Of a stretch of 64,000 nt of DNA, positions 6,863 to 19,805 are shown one piece after another. The translations under genes were made by a program, and so were the position numbers. The DNA lies in the NCBI RefSeq assembly GCF_023151555.2, contig NZ_CP100426.1, forward strand, positions 806,001 through 870,000. Direction: 5' to 3'. The notes beneath the pieces were generated by a model. It was not told where the DNA came from. It worked only from the letters and a program-made list of their open reading frames with translations, and searched no databases. This DNA comes from Photobacterium sp. CCB-ST2H9 (GTDB lineage Bacteria; Pseudomonadota; Gammaproteobacteria; Enterobacterales; Vibrionaceae). Each line of letters starts with the position of its first letter. The stretch's first letter is position 1.

Positions 6863-8305
6863 TTAATTTGAAGCGACGAGAACCGCCTTCATTTCGGTCT
6901 TAATATTGTCTGATTGCGTCCCGAAAATAGCCTGCAGATTATCTCCGACCACCAGTACTTCACGGGCACCCAACTGTTTAATTTTGGGAATATCAGCCTG
7001 TTTGATATCCAGCAACGTCACGCGCAGACGTGTAATGCAGGCATCGACATTCTTGATATTCTCTTTGCTGCCCAGAGCCTGAATCAGATTCTGCGCAAGC
7101 TCAGTGCCAATTTCAGACAGGCTGCTGACTTCATCAGCTTCACTTTCACGTCCCGGTGTCATCAAATTGAGTTTGGCTATCAGTACGCGGAAAATGCTGT
7201 AGTACATCAGTGCCCACAAAGGACCAATCACAATAAACAACCAGGCGTTTTGCGACAGTGGGAAATAAAGCAGGAAGTCGATCGCACCATGTGCAAAAGT
7301 CACACTATGATGAATATCCAGCGCGGTCACCAATGCAAACCCCAGCCCCGTCAGGATACAGTGAATCACATATAAAACCGGTGCGGCGAACAGAAAGGAA
7401 AACTCCATCGGCTCCGTGATCCCTGTCAGCCAGGAAGTCAGCGCTGCAGAAGCCATAATCCCGCCAATCAGGGCACGCTTTTCAGGACGGGCTGAATGAT
7501 AGATTGCCAGACCAACAGCAGGCAGCGCCCACATAGAGTACAGATAACCACCCGCCAGATTTCCCGCCGTCGGATCACCTGCCAGATAACGTTGAATTTC
7601 ACCTTTAATGAGTTTGCCAGTCGCCGGATCAACATACTCTCCCACTTCAAAGAAGAAAGGAACGTTCCAGATATGGTGCAGACCAAACGGGATCAGGGAA
7701 CGTTCAACCAGACCATAAATCCCGAACGCGGTTGTCGGACTCTGGTATGCCGCCCAGTGCGAGAAGCTGTCAATTGCGCTGCCGATTGGCGGCCACACAT
7801 AACTCAGTAAAATCCCGAGGAAAATAGCGCTGATACCGGTGATAATTGGGACAAAACGTTTACCGGCAAAGAAGCCCAGATACTCGGGTAACTTGATATT
7901 GTGGAAACGATTAAAGAGATAAGCGGCCACAGCACCGATCATGATCCCGCCGAATACCCCGGTATTCAGGCTCGGAATCCCGATGATTGTTGCAGGTTCA
8001 ATGCCGTGCAATTTTGCCATGACTCCCATGGTGGCTGTCATAATGGCAAAACCGACCGTTGCAGCAAGCCCTGCAGCGCCGTCATTATCTGATAATCCCA
8101 GTGCGACACCGATAGCAAAAATCAGTGCCAGATTACTGAATACCGCGTCACCAGACATGGCCATAATGTTTGAGACCAACTCCGGCAACCAGGCAAAATT
8201 GGCTGACCCAATCCCAAGCAATAATCCCGCGACCGGAAGCACGGCAACTGGCAGCATCAGAGATCTGCCAATCCGTTGTAAGAGTCCAAAAGTACTGTTT
8301 ATCAT
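6863..8305 (-). CDS. ptsG: PTS glucose-type permease EIICB
   Basis: A 480-residue phosphotransferase system permease. The EIIC membrane domain (about 1-380) begins with LLQRIGRSLMLPVAVLP and contains KLPEYLGFFAGKRFVPI and GITEPMEFSFLFAAP, typical of the PtsG glucose branch. A cytoplasmic EIIB domain follows (about 400-480), with the phosphorylated cysteine in VDACITRLRV. No EIIA is fused, so it would use a separate EIIA(Glc). It imports and phosphorylates glucose or a related hexose. It is divergent from the second two-component operon, which may control it through the shared intergenic region. A NagE-like or MalX-like specificity cannot be ruled out by eye. Confidence 0.88.
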   Translation of the reverse strand: MINSTFGLLQRIGRSLMLPVAVLPVAGLLLGIGSANFAWLPELVSNIMAMSGDAVFSNLALIFAIGVALGLSDNDGAAGLAATVGFAIMTATMGVMAKLHGIEPATIIGIPSLNTGVFGGIMIGAVAAYLFNRFHNIKLPEYLGFFAGKRFVPIITGISAIFLGILLSYVWPPIGSAIDSFSHWAAYQSPTTAFGIYGLVERSLIPFGLHHIWNVPFFFEVGEYVDPATGKLIKGEIQRYLAGDPTAGNLAGGYLYSMWALPAVGLAIYHSARPEKRALIGGIMASAALTSWLTGITEPMEFSFLFAAPVLYVIHCILTGLGFALVTALDIHHSVTFAHGAIDFLLYFPLSQNAWLFIVIGPLWALMYYSIFRVLIAKLNLMTPGRESEADEVSSLSEIGTELAQNLIQALGSKENIKNVDACITRLRVTLLDIKQADIPKIKQLGAREVLVVGDNLQAIFGTQSDNIKTEMKAVLVASN

Positions 8306-8513
8306 TTTTTTATGTCCTTCTTGATATTTTCGTAGAGGTACATAACTAACTTAATGAAAACAAGCGGACTGAAGGTTACAAAAGCCTATGAGTTTGTAAG
8401 TAGCCTGTTACATACCCAAGTTGAGGTACGTATGAGTTTTGAGCTATAGCTGTGGTTTTCCATGTTGAAATGATGTATCAGATACACAAATGGAATAAGC
8501 AACGCGGTCAGGT
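8306..8513. promoter_or_regulatory. Divergent promoter region of ptsG and the second two-component operon
   Basis: A 208-base divergent intergenic region. It contains GGTTAC near 8375 and CTGTTAC near 8405, blocks related to the GTAAC half-sites seen at 3131-3150 upstream of the paralogous regulator. A near 11-base direct repeat (TGTAAGTAGCC / TGTTACATACC) lies at about 8395-8416. These are candidate operator sites only. Confidence 0.3.
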
Positions 8514-9230
8514 ATGAAGAACACCAGAGAAATGAAGACGATTCTCGTCGTGGACGATAATCAGGAACTCAGGGATGCACTCACTGAATACCTTGGTCGC
8601 TCAGAGTTTCATGTACTGACTGCCTGCGATGGCGAAGAGATGTGGGCACACTTCAATCAGGCCGAACCGAATCTGATCATTCTCGATATTATGATGCCGG
8701 GAGATGACGGGCTAACCCTCTGCGGTCAGATCCGGAAGCGTTCCAATGTGCCGATTATCATGCTGACCGCTGTGACCGATGAAGTGGATCGGATTGCCGG
8801 TCTTGAAATCGGAGCTGATGATTACATCACCAAAACATTCAGCCCGAGAGAACTGCTGGCGCGAATCAAAGCCTTGCTGCGCCGGACTCAGGTCACACAC
8901 GGAGAAGCCGCATCGCACCATCTGGTACAGTTTTCCGGCTGGACCTGTGACCTGATAAAACGTCGTTTAATCAGCAAAGAGGGCGAAATCATTCCGCTCT
9001 CCGGGGCTGACTTCAACCTGATCAGCCTGATGCTGGAAAAGCCGAATCAGTTACTCAGCCGTGACAATATTGCCCGCTGTATCTGGGGAAGGGATGCCGA
9101 ACCGTTTGAACGGGGGATCGACGTCCAGATCAGCCGCCTGAGAAAACATCTGCATGATGATGACCGGTCTTTGATTCTGACCGTCAGAAACAAAGGCTAC
9201 ATGCTGGCCAGTGATGTGATAACGGTGTAA
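8514..9230 (+). CDS. OmpR/PhoB-family response regulator (second copy)
   Basis: A 238-residue regulator closely similar to the one at 2282-3019. The receiver domain has phospho-acceptor Asp58 in ILDIMMPGDDG and Lys107 in YITKTFSPRE. The Pro that normally follows this Lys is Thr here, an uncommon change in a loop used for activation. The C-terminal winged helix ends with SRLRKHLHD and VRNKGYML. A second in-frame ATG at 8532 gives a more conventional start (MKTILVVDDN) and may be the true one. It is the first gene of a rightward operon with kinase and binding protein. Divergent ptsG is a likely target by position. Confidence 0.92.
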   Translation: MKNTREMKTILVVDDNQELRDALTEYLGRSEFHVLTACDGEEMWAHFNQAEPNLIILDIMMPGDDGLTLCGQIRKRSNVPIIMLTAVTDEVDRIAGLEIGADDYITKTFSPRELLARIKALLRRTQVTHGEAASHHLVQFSGWTCDLIKRRLISKEGEIIPLSGADFNLISLMLEKPNQLLSRDNIARCIWGRDAEPFERGIDVQISRLRKHLHDDDRSLILTVRNKGYMLASDVITV

Positions 9231-12341: not shown

Positions 12342-12762
12342 ATGTCGAATCATGGAAATCTAATTAACACATCACTCATTAAAGCAATGCGATTAAAAAA
12401 AAGGGTTAAGTCAAGAAGATCTGGTCAATGAAAGTCTGGAGCGCCATTGTTATATATCGATCGCAACGCTCAAACGGATAGAGTCAGGACAGAAGGCATC
12501 CAATACAACACTGAAAAAACTCGCGAAATTCTTTCAAGTAAAAACGGACGACCTGCTCCTTCCTGTCGCTCCTCATGCTGAGGTCAATTTTCCCAAATGG
12601 CAGAGCACCACCATTCACTGGAAGCCAAGTTTGACCCAGAAGAGTGACGAATCCCTGCAGCCGCTCAGCCATGCCTGCTTAACACTTTATTTATTGCTTC
12701 AAGAATCAGAAGAGCATCCGTCAATGAAAGAAATGTTCACCCATCACTCACCTTCAAACTGA
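12342..12762 (+). pseudogene. XRE-family HTH regulator, frameshifted in an A8 run
   Basis: The ATG at 12342 follows an AAGGAAAAT site and reads MSNHGNLINTSLIKAMRLKK, then runs into a stop after 32 codons. Removing one A from the eight-A run at 12395-12402 restores a frame of about 139 codons containing GLSQEDLV and ISIATLKRIESGQKAS, then LKKLAKFFQVKTDDLLL. That is a classic XRE/lambda-repressor helix-turn-helix. The C-terminal 60 residues are unknown. It precedes the protease and peptide genes and would be their natural regulator. The shift may be a real mutation, a slippage-based switch or a homopolymer sequencing error; the sequence cannot tell these apart. Confidence 0.75.
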
Positions 12763-12980
12763 TACCAAAGCGATACGGCATACCAAAAAAAATTTAAGTA
12801 TCTTTACTTACAAGTTCAGGAAATTCATTGCATATCAGGCAAGGAATAACATCTGAACTTGAATAACACGACAGATTTTTAAACACAGAAAAATCTCTGA
12901 TATCCGACGTTACAGCTTGTTTTTTTATGTATGGATGAAGTTCAGAGACTGACTGAATAATAAACCGATTGGAGTCTTCA

Positions 12981-14993
12981 ATGGTTATGGAATCAGCAGT
13001 CGAGCAGGAACTTGTCTCTGTTCTCGAGCAATTAAAAACTGCAGGTAAACACGGCGCGGGGATAAATGTGGCTGTCATTGATGGTGCAATTCAACATAAC
13101 CATCCGATGCTCACTCATCTTTCAATCCAGCAAGCTGGAGAGGTTCAGCAAGCACAGACAAAGCATGGCACTGCTGTCTGTAGCTTAATTGCTGGGCAGG
13201 GAGTCGGCTTGGCAACCGATCTGAATATCATAAGTTTTCCCGTTTTCCATGAAGACAATGAAGGGAATATCAGCGGTTGTTCAGAGCGAATACTCGCGAA
13301 AGCAATCACACAAGCATGTCACTATCAGTGCGACATCATTAACATCAGCGGCGCATCACTTTCGCTCAATGGTCGCGGAACGGACGAATTACGTAAAGCA
13401 ATCAAATTATGCCAAGACGCTGGTGTTCTTGTGGTTGCTGCGGTGGGAAATGAAGGACAGAACACGGAAAGCATACCCGCATCTCTCGATTCCGTGCTTG
13501 CCGTGGGTGCGTGTGATCGCGAAGGAATACCGGCCATTTTTAATAATCATGGCCAACGTCTAGTCAAGAAGATGTTACTGGCGCCCGGTGTGCTCATGCC
13601 TGTGGCGACTCCTGATAACCAAATTACCAGTGTGAGTGGCAGCAGCTTTGCGACGCCAATCGTCTCAGGCATCTGCGCTTTACTCATCAACGCACTCCAT
13701 TTAGATAGATGTGCATCAGACACCCCAGAACGGTTACGCAAAATTCTGTTTGAAACTGCCTCATTCATGTATGTGAACAGCCCAAACCGTTCCGGCGTTG
13801 TCGTACATCGAATCAATCTTTCTGCTTTGTTAAGACACGTTGTGCGCAAAACAAATCACTCAAATCTGAAACCACCACCCAAAAGGACGAATGCCATGTC
13901 AAACCACGAACCCTCAACACATGCTGTTGAACCCAACCCAATGCAGTCGGCTGAATGTAGGCCACAAGTGGCTGATGATATCAGTGACCTTGAACCGGGG
14001 CTCATTGATACCCTTGAATCAAGCGTGCAGGATGAACCAGAGATAAGTTCGGCAGAACTGTCATCGGGGAACCTTTCTGGCTATGAAACATGTGAGCCAG
14101 CCGCGCTGAAATTACCCCGGATCGCTGATCCAGCGGCAAACCGCTATGTACACGGAGAACCCAGACCTGTCAGGGCACAAGCCATTAAAGATGCCCGTGA
14201 AATTCAGGGGGCAGAGAAAGTCTTCCTGATTGGCACCATTGGATACGATTTTGGGACAGAGGCCCGTCTGGATTACTTCACTCAAGTGATGGGCAATAAA
14301 GATTCACATCCGTTTGATCCGGAGTGTATGGCGCAACACCTGAACACAGGCGATAACGCAGAACAGTCAAATGCGCTGATTTGGACGCTGAAAATTGATG
14401 GGATACCGGTTTATGCCATTGACCCGGACAGTGAATTTGCTGTGCTGCAATATGCCCGTTTAGTCAGCTTTTTACATGAACAGGAAACTGCCGGTGTGGA
14501 GCGTGTTTCTATCGCAGGTGTCGTGACCGGAGAAACCCGACTGTTTAATGGTCATGTCATTCCTAAGGTCTCCCCTGTCCTGCGAGGCATGTTCAATTGG
14601 AAATCCGAAACATTAGCAGAACTGGTCATGGGCGAGACGAAAGATACAGCCAAAACGGCTGAAATGACCAATTTCCTCAACCGGATCTATTACGAGCTGC
14701 GTAACCGGGGGCTCAATTCACAGGAACGTGCAATCAATTATGCAGCCACAAATGCATATCAGATGAAAGAAATTTTCGATGATGCCTTCGAAGAGAATCT
14801 GTTCCTAAATCGCATCAGCGCTGAACAGAGCCCTGTCAGTCGGCCGGAATCAGATTGCTGGGATGTCATTCTGGAATTCTTTAACCCGAAAGAGCGCTTA
14901 ACCGCAGCGCGGAAACTCTATCGCTATACCGTGGATGTCAGCGACGTGATACCTGTCACCATCGGAACTTTACGGACCTGGCACGCCTATTAA
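12981..14993 (+). CDS. Subtilisin-like protease of PatA/PatG (cyanobactin) type
   Basis: About 670 residues from the ATG at 12981, which has TTGGAG six bases upstream. The S8 domain (about 1-280) carries the catalytic Asp in VAVIDGAIQ (residue 34), His in KHGTAV (62) and Ser in SGSSFATP (222), with the oxyanion Asn in AAVGNEG (157). A low-complexity acidic linker (about 300-395) follows. The C-terminal domain (about 405-670) begins PRPVRAQAIKD and contains FLIGTIGYDFGTEAR, which I recognise as the C-terminal domain of cyanobactin maturation proteases. No signal peptide, so it is cytoplasmic. It probably cleaves or cyclises the 49-residue peptide encoded 98 bases downstream. No YcaO or prenyltransferase gene is nearby, so it is not a standard cyanobactin cluster. 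Confidence 0.88.
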   Translation: MVMESAVEQELVSVLEQLKTAGKHGAGINVAVIDGAIQHNHPMLTHLSIQQAGEVQQAQTKHGTAVCSLIAGQGVGLATDLNIISFPVFHEDNEGNISGCSERILAKAITQACHYQCDIINISGASLSLNGRGTDELRKAIKLCQDAGVLVVAAVGNEGQNTESIPASLDSVLAVGACDREGIPAIFNNHGQRLVKKMLLAPGVLMPVATPDNQITSVSGSSFATPIVSGICALLINALHLDRCASDTPERLRKILFETASFMYVNSPNRSGVVVHRINLSALLRHVVRKTNHSNLKPPPKRTNAMSNHEPSTHAVEPNPMQSAECRPQVADDISDLEPGLIDTLESSVQDEPEISSAELSSGNLSGYETCEPAALKLPRIADPAANRYVHGEPRPVRAQAIKDAREIQGAEKVFLIGTIGYDFGTEARLDYFTQVMGNKDSHPFDPECMAQHLNTGDNAEQSNALIWTLKIDGIPVYAIDPDSEFAVLQYARLVSFLHEQETAGVERVSIAGVVTGETRLFNGHVIPKVSPVLRGMFNWKSETLAELVMGETKDTAKTAEMTNFLNRIYYELRNRGLNSQERAINYAATNAYQMKEIFDDAFEENLFLNRISAEQSPVSRPESDCWDVILEFFNPKERLTAARKLYRYTVDVSDVIPVTIGTLRTWHAY

Positions 14994-15043
14994 TTTCGTG
15001 CCGGTCAACAGAATTGCTGCCAGGTTGTTTCGCAGCATATCCC

Positions 15044-15058
15044 TGAGGCTGCGCCTCA
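15044..15058 (+). other. Small hairpin between protease and peptide genes
   Basis: Arms TGAGGC and GCCTCA around TGC, about 20 bases upstream of the peptide gene's ribosome binding site and without a T-run. It could be an RNA processing or stability element that lets the peptide be made at a different level from the protease; this is inference. Confidence 0.3.
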
Positions 15059-15091
15059 AAATAAAACTGTAAATCTCAATAGGAGAATATT

Positions 15092-15241
15092 ATGAAACTT
15101 CCAACTCAAGCACAAAGCGTTGACCGTTCAAATCGTATTGCACAAGCCAAAGCTGCGGGTGTCAACCCTGCATTTTGGGGAAGCGTACGGAACGTACTGA
15201 AAAAAGCAGGTCAAGCCGCTCTGCAAGGTGTACTGAGCTAA
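15092..15241 (+). CDS. Candidate RiPP precursor peptide, 49 residues
   Basis: A short gene with a strong AGGAG site six bases before the ATG and its own terminator right after the stop. Residues 1-12 read MKLPTQAQSVDR. The pattern L-P-x-Q-x-Q-x-V-x-R matches the start of cyanobactin precursor leaders as I remember them (PatE: LPQQGQPVIR). Residues 13-22 are polar and Ala-rich. Residues 23-49 (from GVNPAFWGS, ending ALQGVLS) have Arg33, Lys37 and Lys38, no acidic residue and an amphipathic spacing, like cationic helical antimicrobial peptides. There are no Cys residues, and no Ser/Thr-rich core for lanthionines. It lies directly after the PatA/PatG-type protease, its probable processing enzyme. 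The cleavage site and any modification are unknown. Confidence 0.82.
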   Translation: MKLPTQAQSVDRSNRIAQAKAAGVNPAFWGSVRNVLKKAGQAALQGVLS

Positions 15242-15249
15242 ATCAGTAC

Positions 15250-15279
15250 AACGCGCGGCTGAACCAGTCGCGCGTTTTT
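15250..15279 (+). terminator. Intrinsic terminator of the peptide gene
   Basis: Arms AACGCGCG and CGCGCGTT with an 11-base loop, followed directly by a T-run. It sits nine bases after the peptide stop codon, so the peptide mRNA ends here and the next gene is at most partly read through. Confidence 0.88.
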
Positions 15280-15325
15280 CCAAACATATTCTTAATCACT
15301 TACAGCAATACTTGAGGAAAATGTC

Positions 15326-15814
15326 ATGTCGAAAATAATTGTCTTCAGTGGACATGGAATGTGGCCGCTTGGCAGTGATGCCTTTGTTCAAGTGCCCGCA
15401 GGATGTCATTTTAAGTTTTATACTCTCAACGCCAAACTAATGTCTGATGCATTTGGGGGAGAGTTGGATCAAGGTCGAATTAAAGGTTTGGAACCGGAAC
15501 AAGAAGCTAAACAATATACGCATATTCCTAATATGCGACTCTATCCGCCTGAAGGTTTGAACATACGTGCGCCAAACTCTACAACCTGGCATCAGATTAA
15601 ATACAATGACCCAGTACCGGCTGATGACCTCAACATTCAGGTCACAGTTGACAGTGTTTATTCAGATGGTGTTAATCTCACTACTTTGTTTGAATATCTC
15701 TCTCCAGCTATACATCAAGCTAAAGAAGTGATCTTTATCTGGGCTGCCTGCCGTGAAGTTAATCTATCCGACAGTGGTGGGAAAGAAATAGGTGTCAATA
15801 TTACCCAAAAATAA
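15326..15814 (+). CDS. GHG-motif protein, possibly Stv/caspase-like fold
   Basis: A 162-residue soluble protein with a good AGGAAAATGTC start context. It begins IIVFSGHGMWPLGS and later has VQVPAGCHFKFYTLNAKL and EVIFIWAACREV near residues 137-148. The order beta-strand, GHG, then beta-strand and AAC-R recalls the His-Cys arrangement of caspase-like/CHAT proteins, and the N-terminal motif recalls the putative adhesin Stv domain; both are memory-based and uncertain. There is no signal peptide. It lies between two terminators downstream of the peptide gene and may have its own promoter in the 45-base gap. It could be a second processing enzyme or an immunity factor. Confidence 0.6.
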   Translation: MSKIIVFSGHGMWPLGSDAFVQVPAGCHFKFYTLNAKLMSDAFGGELDQGRIKGLEPEQEAKQYTHIPNMRLYPPEGLNIRAPNSTTWHQIKYNDPVPADDLNIQVTVDSVYSDGVNLTTLFEYLSPAIHQAKEVIFIWAACREVNLSDSGGKEIGVNITQK

Positions 15815-15827
15815 GTAATCAAAAAGA

Positions 15828-15876
15828 AACAGGCTCATTGATGATTCATCCAGAGAAAGCAATGAGCCTGTTCTTT
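15828..15876 (+). terminator. Intrinsic terminator after the GHG-motif gene
   Basis: Perfect 13-bp arms (AACAGGCTCATTG and CAATGAGCCTGTT) around a 19-base loop, followed by CTTTAATT. It lies 13 bases after the stop codon. Confidence 0.85.
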
Positions 15877-15982
15877 AATTACTATGCAGAATTAAATTAT
15901 GATATTCCTTTGATATGTGGCAATTGAATACTTTATATAAAATACGGATAACCAACTTATGTAAAAAACGTCCGGAGGCATT

Positions 15983-16741
15983 GTGTATACATCAGCGTTC
16001 GTTGGACCTTGGGTTCAAGGTGGAAGAGCTTTTCATACAGCCCTTAAAATGTATTGGAGACAAGATAGAATGATCCGTTCAACAGGACGATCAATCTTTG
16101 AAGAACAATGGACAAACTTCGTCGATTGCATCTGTCATGAACCAGGAAAAGATCTGTTTTTGGCTGCCTCTTTAACAACACCTGTTTTTCTGGAACTGAT
16201 TCATCATGCGATGGATAGAGAGTTAAACCCAAACAGAAACTTATATGAAGGGTATGTCTGGCATGACATTCAGTCACATTTCGAAGCAGAGAAAGACCGT
16301 GATATTCATTCGGTGAAACAAGAATTAGAGTCCTCCATCATCACCCAGGAAAATGCATTCCGGAAAGTCGTGAGAGAAACGGTCCTCTCAGATACCCATG
16401 AATTTCACGCTTGGTATACCATATCAGTGAGACGTTTTTTTGATGATTTATTTCACGCCTATCAAGCTGATTCTGTAGCTGAACCAGTCGTTGCTAGAGA
16501 TTCAGCCGTGTTGATAAATTATGAACATGACTTTGCGACAATAAAAAATTTATGCACCTTGATAATCATTCTGTTTTTTGTGGATATGATATCCCCCGCA
16601 GTTGAAATTGCTTTTAACCTTTTTCAGGATGAAACCGTAAATACACCGGTGCTGGATGAAATCTTTGCTACAGGAACAACGGCTGTCATCGGTGCGATCG
16701 TCTGGGGATTAAAAGGGTTAACCGGACATCATCGCTCATAA
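15983..16741 (+). CDS. Unknown membrane-anchored protein of the peptide locus
   Basis: A 252-residue protein starting with GTG four bases after GGAGG. Most of it is soluble and helical, with many charged residues. A hydrophobic segment near 190-212 (LCTLIIILFFVDMI) and a weaker one near 228-245 (TGTTAVIGAIVWGLKGL) suggest a C-terminal membrane hairpin or anchor. I do not recognise a family. As the last rightward gene of the locus it is a candidate self-protection protein against the cationic peptide, or a membrane-acting partner. The next gene runs in the opposite direction. Confidence 0.7.
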   Translation: MYTSAFVGPWVQGGRAFHTALKMYWRQDRMIRSTGRSIFEEQWTNFVDCICHEPGKDLFLAASLTTPVFLELIHHAMDRELNPNRNLYEGYVWHDIQSHFEAEKDRDIHSVKQELESSIITQENAFRKVVRETVLSDTHEFHAWYTISVRRFFDDLFHAYQADSVAEPVVARDSAVLINYEHDFATIKNLCTLIIILFFVDMISPAVEIAFNLFQDETVNTPVLDEIFATGTTAVIGAIVWGLKGLTGHHRS

Positions 16742-18968: not shown

Positions 18969-19805
18969 ATGAACACTTCCATTTTCGTCTTCATCACACT
19001 CATCCCTCTCGGTATCATCGCTTACGTATGGATAAAGACCACCACATATCTCAGAACTGAACATATAAAAAAATATCGTTTCCCGCCGCCACTCAAAGCA
19101 AAGGTAAAAGCCTGTTACCCGCACCTTTCAGATGACGAAATAGAGCTCGTATTTGAAGCACTTCGAGATTATTTTCTGATTTGTTCTCAAACACCCCTGA
19201 AAGCGATTTCTATGCCTTCTAAAATTGTCGATGTTGCCTGGCATGAGTTCATTTTAGCAACCAAAACCTACCACCACTTTTGCCAGAAATCTTTTGGCCG
19301 TTACTTCCACCACTCGCCCGACTGGGAAAGCAATACAACAGCCTCCCGAAGATTAAGAAATGAACAAAGCTGGCGATTCATTTGTCTCCACGAGCAAATC
19401 AGCCCTGGATATCCACGGGAAATGCCACTGCTGTTTTCAATTGATGAACAACTGAACATAGAAGATGGGTTTTGTTATCACCACAGCCCAAGGAAAAGAT
19501 CCATCCATGTCAACACCATTGACTCTGCCAATGAGGACGGGTGGTTTCTCTATTGTAAAACGCCCCTCTGCTCCGAGGATGACGGCGATGGGTCAGAAGG
19601 CGACGATGATGACGATAACTACGATGATTGCAATGACAGCAGTAGTCACAACGATACAGACAACGACTATCGCAATGGGTCTGATACCAATGACAATTAT
19701 CATTACACCAGTGGATTTGACAGTGACAGCAGCAGCCAAAGCTGCAGCGGTGGTGGTGGTGGTGGCTGTAGTAGTTGTAGCAGCTGTAGTTCGGGTGGGG
19801 ATTGA
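18969..19805 (+). CDS. DUF1399-like membrane protein with Asp/Ser/Gly/Cys-rich tail
   Basis: A 278-residue protein. An N-terminal transmembrane helix (about 4-24) is followed by a domain with VDVAWHEFILATKTYHHFC and FGRYFHHSPDWE, which resembles the glycine-rich-domain/DUF1399 family. From residue about 200 the sequence becomes very acidic (runs of Asp and Asn) and then Ser-Gly-Cys rich, ending with a six-Gly run and CSSCSSCSSGG. Such tails may bind metal ions. The function is unknown. Confidence 0.65.
   Translation: MNTSIFVFITLIPLGIIAYVWIKTTTYLRTEHIKKYRFPPPLKAKVKACYPHLSDDEIELVFEALRDYFLICSQTPLKAISMPSKIVDVAWHEFILATKTYHHFCQKSFGRYFHHSPDWESNTTASRRLRNEQSWRFICLHEQISPGYPREMPLLFSIDEQLNIEDGFCYHHSPRKRSIHVNTIDSANEDGWFLYCKTPLCSEDDGDGSEGDDDDDNYDDCNDSSSHNDTDNDYRNGSDTNDNYHYTSGFDSDSSSQSCSGGGGGGCSSCSSCSSGGD

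Follow-up and report, generated by a model that had tools for sequence, protein, structure and literature searches.

A YcaO-free pairing of a PatA-type protease with a precursor peptide in Photobacterium, and a predicted internal start in the protease gene

What does a cyanobactin-type protease do in a genome that has no YcaO enzyme? The question is raised by a locus of Photobacterium sp. CCB-ST2H9, in which genes for an XRE-type regulator, for a subtilisin with a cyanobactin-type C-terminal domain and for a 49-residue peptide follow one another. It lies in a 64,000 bp stretch of contig NZ_CP100426.1 (positions 806,001 to 870,000), referred to here in its entirety as the window; coordinates are those of the window, and the features described between 12342 and 16741 are on its forward strand. 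A preliminary description had picked out the locus as a candidate for peptide maturation, and all of the parts that it named are present in the window sequence. The protease and the peptide form a conserved but rare pair, and the locus is, as judged from its gene content, not a cyanobactin cluster but a cleavage-only relative of the cyanobactin pathway, with a protease gene that is predicted to yield two products.

The protease gene (12981..14993) encodes 670 residues with an S8 catalytic domain, a disordered linker and a cyanobactin domain of unknown function (DUF); translation most likely begins at ATG 12981, which has GGAG shortly before it, the codon at 12969 being TTG. The product scores 465.2 bits against TIGR03895 (cut-off 421.05) and aligns to positions 1–604 of 606 in the profile, which places it in the family over both S8 and DUF, and Pfam finds Peptidase_S8 (PF00082, 13053..13760), PatG_D (PF18047, 14217..14525, E = 2.3e-18) and PatG_C (PF18065, 14640..14981, E = 3.5e-37). 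The preliminary description had proposed a hidden Markov model search of the protease C-terminus against the PatG C-terminal and TIGR03895 families, and its assignment of a cyanobactin-type domain is borne out by significant matches to both; the catalytic residues, D34, H62, N157 and S222, are invariant in 27 of 27 aligned sequences, that of the window among them. By sequence, the DUF matches that of PatG (PDB 4uvq, E 2.9e-48), and the S8 domain scores 135.5 bits against an N-terminal cyanobactin protease (4h6w) but 69.1 bits against the PatG macrocyclase (4aks). The protein falls outside a nine-row G-type clade in the tree, and its gene has the internal start signals described below, which none of nine G-type genes has. 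By these features the window protease is of the PatA type (A-type) and not of the PatG type (G-type). An AlphaFold2 model has confident folds on either side of a linker (residues 296–409) with pLDDT below 50. Neither a signal peptide nor a pro-domain is apparent from the start, and the protease is presumably cytoplasmic. A second full-length protease of the PatA/PatG family was not found in the window genome (one gene); the second match there is a generic subtilase, aligned over residues 64–258 only at 31% identity.

The pairing of protease and peptide extends well beyond this genome. The window protease belongs to a clade of 13 rows (SH-aLRT 100, in a quick-search tree drawn with midpoint rooting and supported by SH-aLRT only) together with those of Yersinia frederiksenii, Y. 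proxima, Enterobacter sp. Cy-643, four more genomes of that family, Vibrio penaeicida and four alphaproteobacterial loci. In all 13 loci, gamma- and alphaproteobacterial alike, the protease is followed by one or two precursors, which are 49 residues long in the nine gammaproteobacterial loci of the clade, and the survey for co-occurrence suggested in the preliminary description thus came out in favor of the pair. The system is nonetheless sparse. Among 369 genomes drawn from the class, two rise above the TIGR03895 cut-off, the window genome and one other (G091), in which leader peptides also follow the protease; the protease is present in 6 of 392 genomes of the family of Enterobacter sp. Cy-643, Cy-643 and Y. 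frederiksenii included, and in 4 of 227 genomes of the genus of V. penaeicida (V. penaeicida and three more distant). Outside the window genome, 59 relatives (35 of them congeneric) yielded S8-domain matches only, and PatG_C was found in two of 52 genomes of the genus, that of the window and G438. In the latter the DUF has another setting: two adjoining PatG_C frames without an S8 domain (L063, 790–2863) stand beside an oppositely oriented gene that looks like a DUF4157-type zinc peptidase. Named genomes were also scanned with a DUF alignment, from which the best 80 of 221 confirmed stretches, representing 78 distinct loci, were kept.

The peptide gene (15092..15241) has a ribosome-binding site of its own, as the preliminary description had it, with AGGAG at 15081..15085, six bases ahead of ATG 15092. 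The 27-residue leader, MKLPTQAQSVDR...AGVNPA (15092..15172), is the conserved part: L3, P4, Q6, R12, V24, P26 and A27 are invariant among 16 aligned clade precursors (the other two of the 18, from L074 and L171, are identical to those of L073 and L170), so that the pattern LPxQ...R...VxPA is found in 16 of 16. The end of the leader, GVNPA, corresponds to the N-terminal cleavage site of recognition sequence II (RSII) type, with V-x-P-A in all 16 aligned precursors. PatA is published as cutting after G(L/V)E(A/P)S (PMC10885120), and since V-x-P-A occupies the equivalent position, the cut is predicted to fall after A27. The predicted core, FWGSVRNVLKKAGQAALQGVLS (15173..15238), has 22 residues and a net charge of +3. 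Of 2000 shuffles, 63 attain the helical hydrophobic moment of this core, as compared with 1048 of 2000 for the leader. A first test on 18 selected cores was repeated with all 18 clade precursors and those of the Vibrio loci L177 and L178: the cores of 17 of the 18 lie in the top 4% of shuffles, as do those of L177 (FFGGVLDILKKAGSGALKGVLS) and L178, and 7 of 24 cores from other lineages do so. The clade core is thus likely to be an amphipathic helix, and because of this pattern it is probably membrane-active and bacteriocin-like.

The clade peptides are poorly represented in curated collections, with none of 16 matching an NCBIfam model at E 1 and Pfam giving weak matches only (3HCDH_RFF in four, best 0.037, and DUF5840 in one, 0.13); in a wider set of 25 peptides, TIGR03678 matches eight and the Pfam families DUF5837 and DUF5840 three each at E 0.1. 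The terminator that the preliminary description had placed after the peptide gene is present as a terminator-like hairpin at 15250..15279, with a 12 bp stem whose 3′ arm runs into T5, two of the T's being paired, but a scan for consensus terminators did not list it, and promoter and terminator scans of the window did no better than on shuffled sequence, with no excess of terminators. Strong hairpins of differing sequence (−16.8 to −25.6 kcal/mol) immediately follow the peptide gene in seven of nine stretches that were folded; the hairpin is weak after the second L076 copy and the first L078 peptide. The sole Rfam match in the window, to mir-154, is below threshold.

These observations suggest how the cassette might work. 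The cytoplasmic PatA-type protease would recognize the 49-residue precursor through its LPxQxxxVxR leader and cut after G-V-N-P-A, freeing an unmodified 22-residue amphipathic helix that would probably be membrane-active in the manner of a bacteriocin. The protease gene would also make a free DUF from an internal start, which may assemble with the full-length protease or regulate it, and a small XRE regulator, made by recoding at a run of A's, would control the cassette. Taken as a whole, this cleavage-only cassette is the account that we favor, as more likely than not.

Its main rival has the same helix acting inside the cell that makes it. In a self-killing or anti-phage module the leader would keep the precursor inactive, and upon infection or stress the cytoplasmic protease would free a membrane-disrupting helix within the producing cell; at other times the free DUF, or else the XRE protein, would hold it off. 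The amphipathic cores, the absence of an apparent secretion signal on the protease and the sparse distribution given above are as expected of such a module, and so is the lack of an export system: at the sensitivity used, no exporter or immunity gene is shared among the 13 clade loci, and no gene common to them across genera was seen beyond those for protease, peptide and XRE protein (with overlapping frames), in a comparison of frames of at least 60 residues at E 1e-8 that can miss small or fast-changing genes. The self-protection and weapon roles suggested in the preliminary description are, with this negative, purely conjectural. PADLOC, run on five window proteins, returned subtilase and IetS matches to the protease, but these are confined to the common S8 fold, and neither PADLOC nor PHROGs gave anything beyond generic S8 and helix-turn-helix (HTH) matches. 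Moreover, several precursors with varied cores at one locus look more like product diversification, and no relative in viral contigs could be confirmed. We therefore regard self-killing as unlikely, though worth keeping in mind. Carriage by a phage or plasmid was itself considered and rejected; 26 viral-contig stretches matched a pattern and none was confirmed. The DNA of the peptide and XRE genes has no match in E. coli genomes. Near the cassette, three of the alphaproteobacterial loci, L078 (578–5503), L077 and L080, share genes for a tetratricopeptide repeat protein, a Gly-rich protein with a PAP2 domain and a second, divergent S8 protein.

The second product of the protease gene was predicted from a peculiarity of the linker. 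There are several features of note. First, in an alignment of 27 proteases a methionine is nearly invariant within a linker that is otherwise unconserved. Second, a Shine-Dalgarno sequence precedes this linker ATG in 61 of the 66 genes that have it, while elsewhere in these genes 49 of 686 internal ATGs have one (Fisher p 7e-53), and a further 12 genes have a linker GTG with a Shine-Dalgarno sequence (33 of 344 among background GTGs). Third, the spacing is 5–9 bases in 53 of the 61 genes, and the mean energy of pairing with the anti-Shine-Dalgarno sequence is −7.5 kcal/mol, compared with −2.2 kcal/mol for other ATGs. Finally, the signal is distributed by protease type, being found in 27 of 27 A-type genes in YcaO loci, in 46 of 60 other non-G genes and in none of nine G-type genes, with 95 of 1741 random 31-codon stretches as background. 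In the window the Shine-Dalgarno sequence is AAAAGGA (13881..13887) and the ATG lies at 13896, from which a stand-alone DUF of 365 residues would be made (13896..14993). We infer that internal initiation yielding a free DUF is the economical reading of these signals.

Could the linker simply carry a conserved protein motif, whose codons happen to resemble a start site? The cyanobacterial residues are also conserved (KGGxM, KGExM, TGGxM), as such a motif would require, but the nucleotides are kept where the amino acids are not, with the same bases being spelled by KRT, NRN, ERT and TRR in some clades and by KGG and TGE in others. Where the site includes an arginine codon it is AGG in 14 of 14 cases, although AGG accounts for only 31 of 443 arginine codons overall, the site included. 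Within the window clade the AGGA stands out, with 13, 13, 13 and 12 of 13 loci agreeing at its successive positions while the flanks drift (the rows were lined up on the chosen methionine, so that ATG is 13 of 13 by construction). The stretch is predicted to be disordered, and none of the nine G-type genes has the site. Furthermore, the DUF can stand by itself: L177 encodes its S8 part and its DUF in two frames that meet at the linker site, and in L094 a frame for the DUF alone, with a ribosome-binding site of its own, accompanies the longer protease. A protein motif without a start site is accordingly improbable, and internal initiation is the interpretation that we carry forward.

The linkers have a further property, in that motifs of the form [VIL]xPS, which resemble the PatA site, are present in 50 of 86 as compared with a shuffle mean of 17.1 (maximum 29). 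Examples such as L093, L110 and L112 are enriched in them, which suggests self-processing in some members. For the window protease linker self-cleavage was rejected, its linker being without any [VIL]xPS motif.

The wider family bears on the relation to cyanobactins. Across 93 loci, YcaO was found in the fetched DNA of 28 and in none of that of the other 65; these absences apply to up to about 7 kb on each side, searched with a profile seeded from one cyanobactin YcaO. At the 65 loci without YcaO, small open reading frames (ORFs) with the leader pattern are concentrated behind the protease, with 57 downstream (174,638 bases) as against three upstream (178,607 bases) and four on the opposite strand of the downstream stretch, and the corresponding numbers at the 28 YcaO loci are 15 downstream, one upstream and two antisense. 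Leaving out two loci with less than 500 bases downstream, and dropping three PatB-like ORFs, 36 of 63 loci without YcaO hold 54 precursors. A motif like the PatA site, [VILM]x[PA][SAN], follows within 35 residues of the leader in 44 of these 54, compared with a shuffle mean of 15.9 (maximum 26) and none of 10 control ORFs. Both LPxQxxPVxR and GVxPS are shared by precursors of other lineages, and the conservation of P, Q, V/I/L and R is partly circular, as the search pattern required them, which it did not for P9 and GVxPS. The AELSEE or AELAEE element, which we take to be equivalent to RSI, is in none of the 54 precursors. RSI has been tied to the heterocyclase (PMC4663559).

Relatives of the protease without YcaO in the fetched DNA also occur in assemblies of Acidobacteria, Bacteroidetes, Planctomycetes, Nitrospira and Actinobacteria. 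Leader peptides adjoin the protease in Acidobacteria (L081), Bacteroidetes (L083) and Streptomyces plasmids (L069 and L072); none were seen at the Planctomycete (L149) or Nitrospira (L088) locus. In plasmid L069 four tandem precursors (7806–8792), two of them identical and all annotated as hypothetical, come right after the protease, with near-constant leaders, short hydrophobic cores and a BTAD regulator upstream. A PatB-type ORF begins with the same leader motif: 1 of 25 aligned sequences, evidently that of L101, matches TIGR04220 at 1.9e-36. L101, L115 and L150, counted as loci without YcaO, hold PatB-like ORFs and may be cut cyanobactin clusters.

Might the window then hold part of a true cyanobactin-type pathway, its tailoring or macrocyclizing enzymes being encoded elsewhere and its product modified or cyclic? 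The protease exceeds the TIGR03895 cut-off and the leader is like that of cyanobactin precursors. The PatG-type macrocyclization brought up in the preliminary description was rejected, as the S8 domain is nearer to PatA, a second family protease is lacking and the AYDG/SYDD type of C-terminal site ([AS]YD[GD]) is absent from all 20 predicted cores of 15 loci. Cyanobactin clusters are recognized by having both A and G proteases together with B and C genes (PMC4663559), of which the window genome, with its single full-length family gene, does not offer the A and G pair. The D protein, a YcaO, is lacking in some cyanobactin clusters (PMC4603692). YcaO, noted as absent from the locus in the preliminary description, has no match in the whole window genome; 10 of the 14 genomes searched do have one or two, elsewhere in the genome. 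PatB (TIGR04220) was found in none of 11 genomes, with control genomes giving no signal either. In the tree, all YcaO rows fall within one 54-row clade, and the 42 rows outside it are, without exception, from loci lacking YcaO. A modified or cyclic product is therefore very doubtful, and in the absence of YcaO, G protease, C-terminal site and any other shared gene an unmodified one is to be expected. Cyanobactin-like sets do exist outside cyanobacteria: L107, L124 and L141, from Roseobacter, Sphingomonas and Bradyrhizobium assemblies, have YcaO with both A-type and G-type proteases.

Drawing these lines together, we lean slightly towards a more general interpretation, in which PatA-type genes of many lineages, those of canonical cyanobactin clusters included, would be two-product genes whose conserved internal ribosome-binding site provides a free DUF that works with the full-length protease; YcaO-free cassettes of protease and peptide, here with membrane-active helices and an XRE protein made by slippage, would represent this machinery at its simplest, and cyanobactin pathways may have grown out of them. 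Several points weigh against the cassette proposed for the window. A bacteriocin would be expected to come with an exporter or an immunity gene, and none is common to the loci. The limits of the core are drawn by analogy with PatA, and the core of the first L079 peptide lies outside the top 4% (227 of 2000 shuffles). In a profile comparison the clade leader matches those of cyanobactin precursors weakly (over 12 columns, with probability 7.2% and E 0.0049), so that homology of the leaders rests more on position and motif than on score. By the pattern used, 27 of the 63 YcaO-free loci with at least 500 bases downstream have no leader peptide, and many of the cores in other lineages are rich in cysteine. 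Of the 60 non-G genes in loci without YcaO, 14 fail the criterion for an internal start, including that of L077 in the window clade. Lastly, recognition of the leader by the DUF is unsupported by nuclear magnetic resonance (NMR), in which the isolated PatG DUF did not bind PatE (PMC4259220). The domain tested was of the G-type, and as the nine G-type genes are without the internal start, this result does not address the A-type DUF.

The regulator upstream of the protease is divided between two frames. Its N-terminal part, with the beginning of the HTH, occupies 12342..12431 and ends just past a run of eight A's (12395..12402); the C-terminal part follows in another frame (12397..12762) and matches Pfam HTH_3 from profile position 7 onwards (E = 3.1e-7, positions 7–55 of 55). 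The preliminary description had called the gene frameshifted, and the two parts are indeed in different frames, but ordinary decay is not the explanation, as the split is a conserved feature: the same arrangement is found in eight of eight copies, with A8 in the window and A9 at the equivalent place in the other seven (L073, L074, L075 and L168–L171). Divergence at nonsynonymous and synonymous sites (dN, dS; first 18 and 75 codons, more distant pairs being saturated) is 0.024 and 0.635 for the N-terminal and 0.115 and 1.843 for the C-terminal part between L168 and L170, and 0.105 and 0.396, and 0.041 and 0.530, respectively, between L073 and L074, which indicates purifying selection on both parts in these close pairs. 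A full-length product would then be made through recoding at the A-run. Bacterial RNA polymerase slips efficiently where nine A or T occur in a row (PMC5009743), and ribosomal frameshifting or phase variation may likewise make use of poly-A sites (PMC3711429). In the window the frame offset has the opposite sense to that of the seven A9 copies; slippage would account for this better than a ribosomal shift of fixed sense, although it could also be a local change.

Among the 392 family genomes, the XRE part (E 1e-6) and the protease are found in the same six and in no others (Fisher p 2e-13, uncorrected for shared ancestry, and leaving uncounted a second XRE-like match in G544, L189, on another contig). 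One could suppose from this co-occurrence that the XRE protein senses the released core as a pheromone, but no XRE relative turned up in the DNA fetched for V. penaeicida and for the four alphaproteobacterial loci, the C-terminal part has some 90–121 residues with HTH domains as its only Pfam matches of note, and the cores are amphipathic and often multi-copy, all of which makes a signaling role very unlikely.

How do these cassettes compare with known systems? In the patellamide type of cyanobactin pathway (PatA, PatG, PatE, PatD, PatB and PatC) there is the same PatA-type S8 and DUF protease, and a precursor with an LPxQxxPVxR-like beginning, whose core comes immediately after a GVxPS-like cleavage site; the window differs in having no heterocyclase, with neither a G-type macrocyclase nor PatB found, and its peptide is without LAELSEE and the C-terminal RSIII, its predicted core being a 22-residue amphipathic helix. 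The linear cyanobactins (aeruginosamides, viridisamide and muscoride) resemble the product predicted for the window in being linear and derived from a cyanobactin-type precursor. Aeruginosamides and viridisamide carry tailoring enzymes, of which none was found at the window, and muscoride uses the YcaO enzyme MusD (PMC10885120), which likewise has no counterpart found there. Programmed slippage of the dnaX type shares the conserved frame change at a run of eight or nine A's; here it concerns an XRE regulator, the recoding is putative, and the run in the window has eight A's and the opposite offset. Unmodified amphipathic bacteriocins and antimicrobial helices of the amphibian type are short, mildly cationic and amphipathic, with Phe or Trp at the N-terminus, as is the window core, whereas the window cassette has no shared export or immunity gene and no match to a curated family. 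The lanthipeptide proteases NisP, ElxP and AmyP are not known to carry the DUF, and lanthionine enzymes are present in their pathways. They too are subtilisin-family enzymes that remove a leader at a short motif, and the motifs differ from that of the window (PMC10885120).

In the open-licence literature consulted, no mention was found of an internal start in patA, of YcaO-free PatA–peptide cassettes outside cyanobacteria or of an XRE gene with slippage. The cassettes take the PatA enzyme out of its cyanobactin setting, as the pair of protease and peptide alone is kept across gamma- and alphaproteobacteria, and they set apart two components of the leader, one that accompanies the protease (LPxQxxPVxR and GVxPS) and one linked to the heterocyclase (LAELSEE). 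The predicted internal start would give a concrete, testable reason for the resistance of the DUF to assignment, in that the A-type DUF may act as a separate subunit, the published binding experiments having used a PatG DUF fragment (PMC4259220). The peptides are also new candidates for membrane-active helices of a kind missed by YcaO-based genome mining.

The two genes behind the peptide gene had been taken as members of the locus, and this part of the preliminary description must be given up. Neither the Stv-domain protein ('GHG protein', PF21527, 15326..15814) nor the 252-residue protein (15983..16741) has a relative in 84 loci (L067–L150; tblastn, E 0.01). Of 52 genomes of the genus, four have Stv, that of the window among them, and it has no match in plasmids; the 252-residue protein occurs in the window's own genome only among the same 52. 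A hydrophobic stretch can be read near the C-terminus of the latter, and its anchoring in the membrane is putative. The XRE gene and the stretch with the Stv and 252-residue genes are AT-richer (GC about 0.40) than the protease gene (0.48–0.49), from which we draw no firm inference. The Stv-domain protein has an SGHG motif and, later, an AACRE stretch, a combination that may resemble a caspase-like His/Cys pair. Farther along the window, at 18969–19805, a 278-residue protein that is without a Pfam or NCBIfam match at E 1 has a highly acidic stretch and a C-terminal tail rich in Gly, Cys and Ser.

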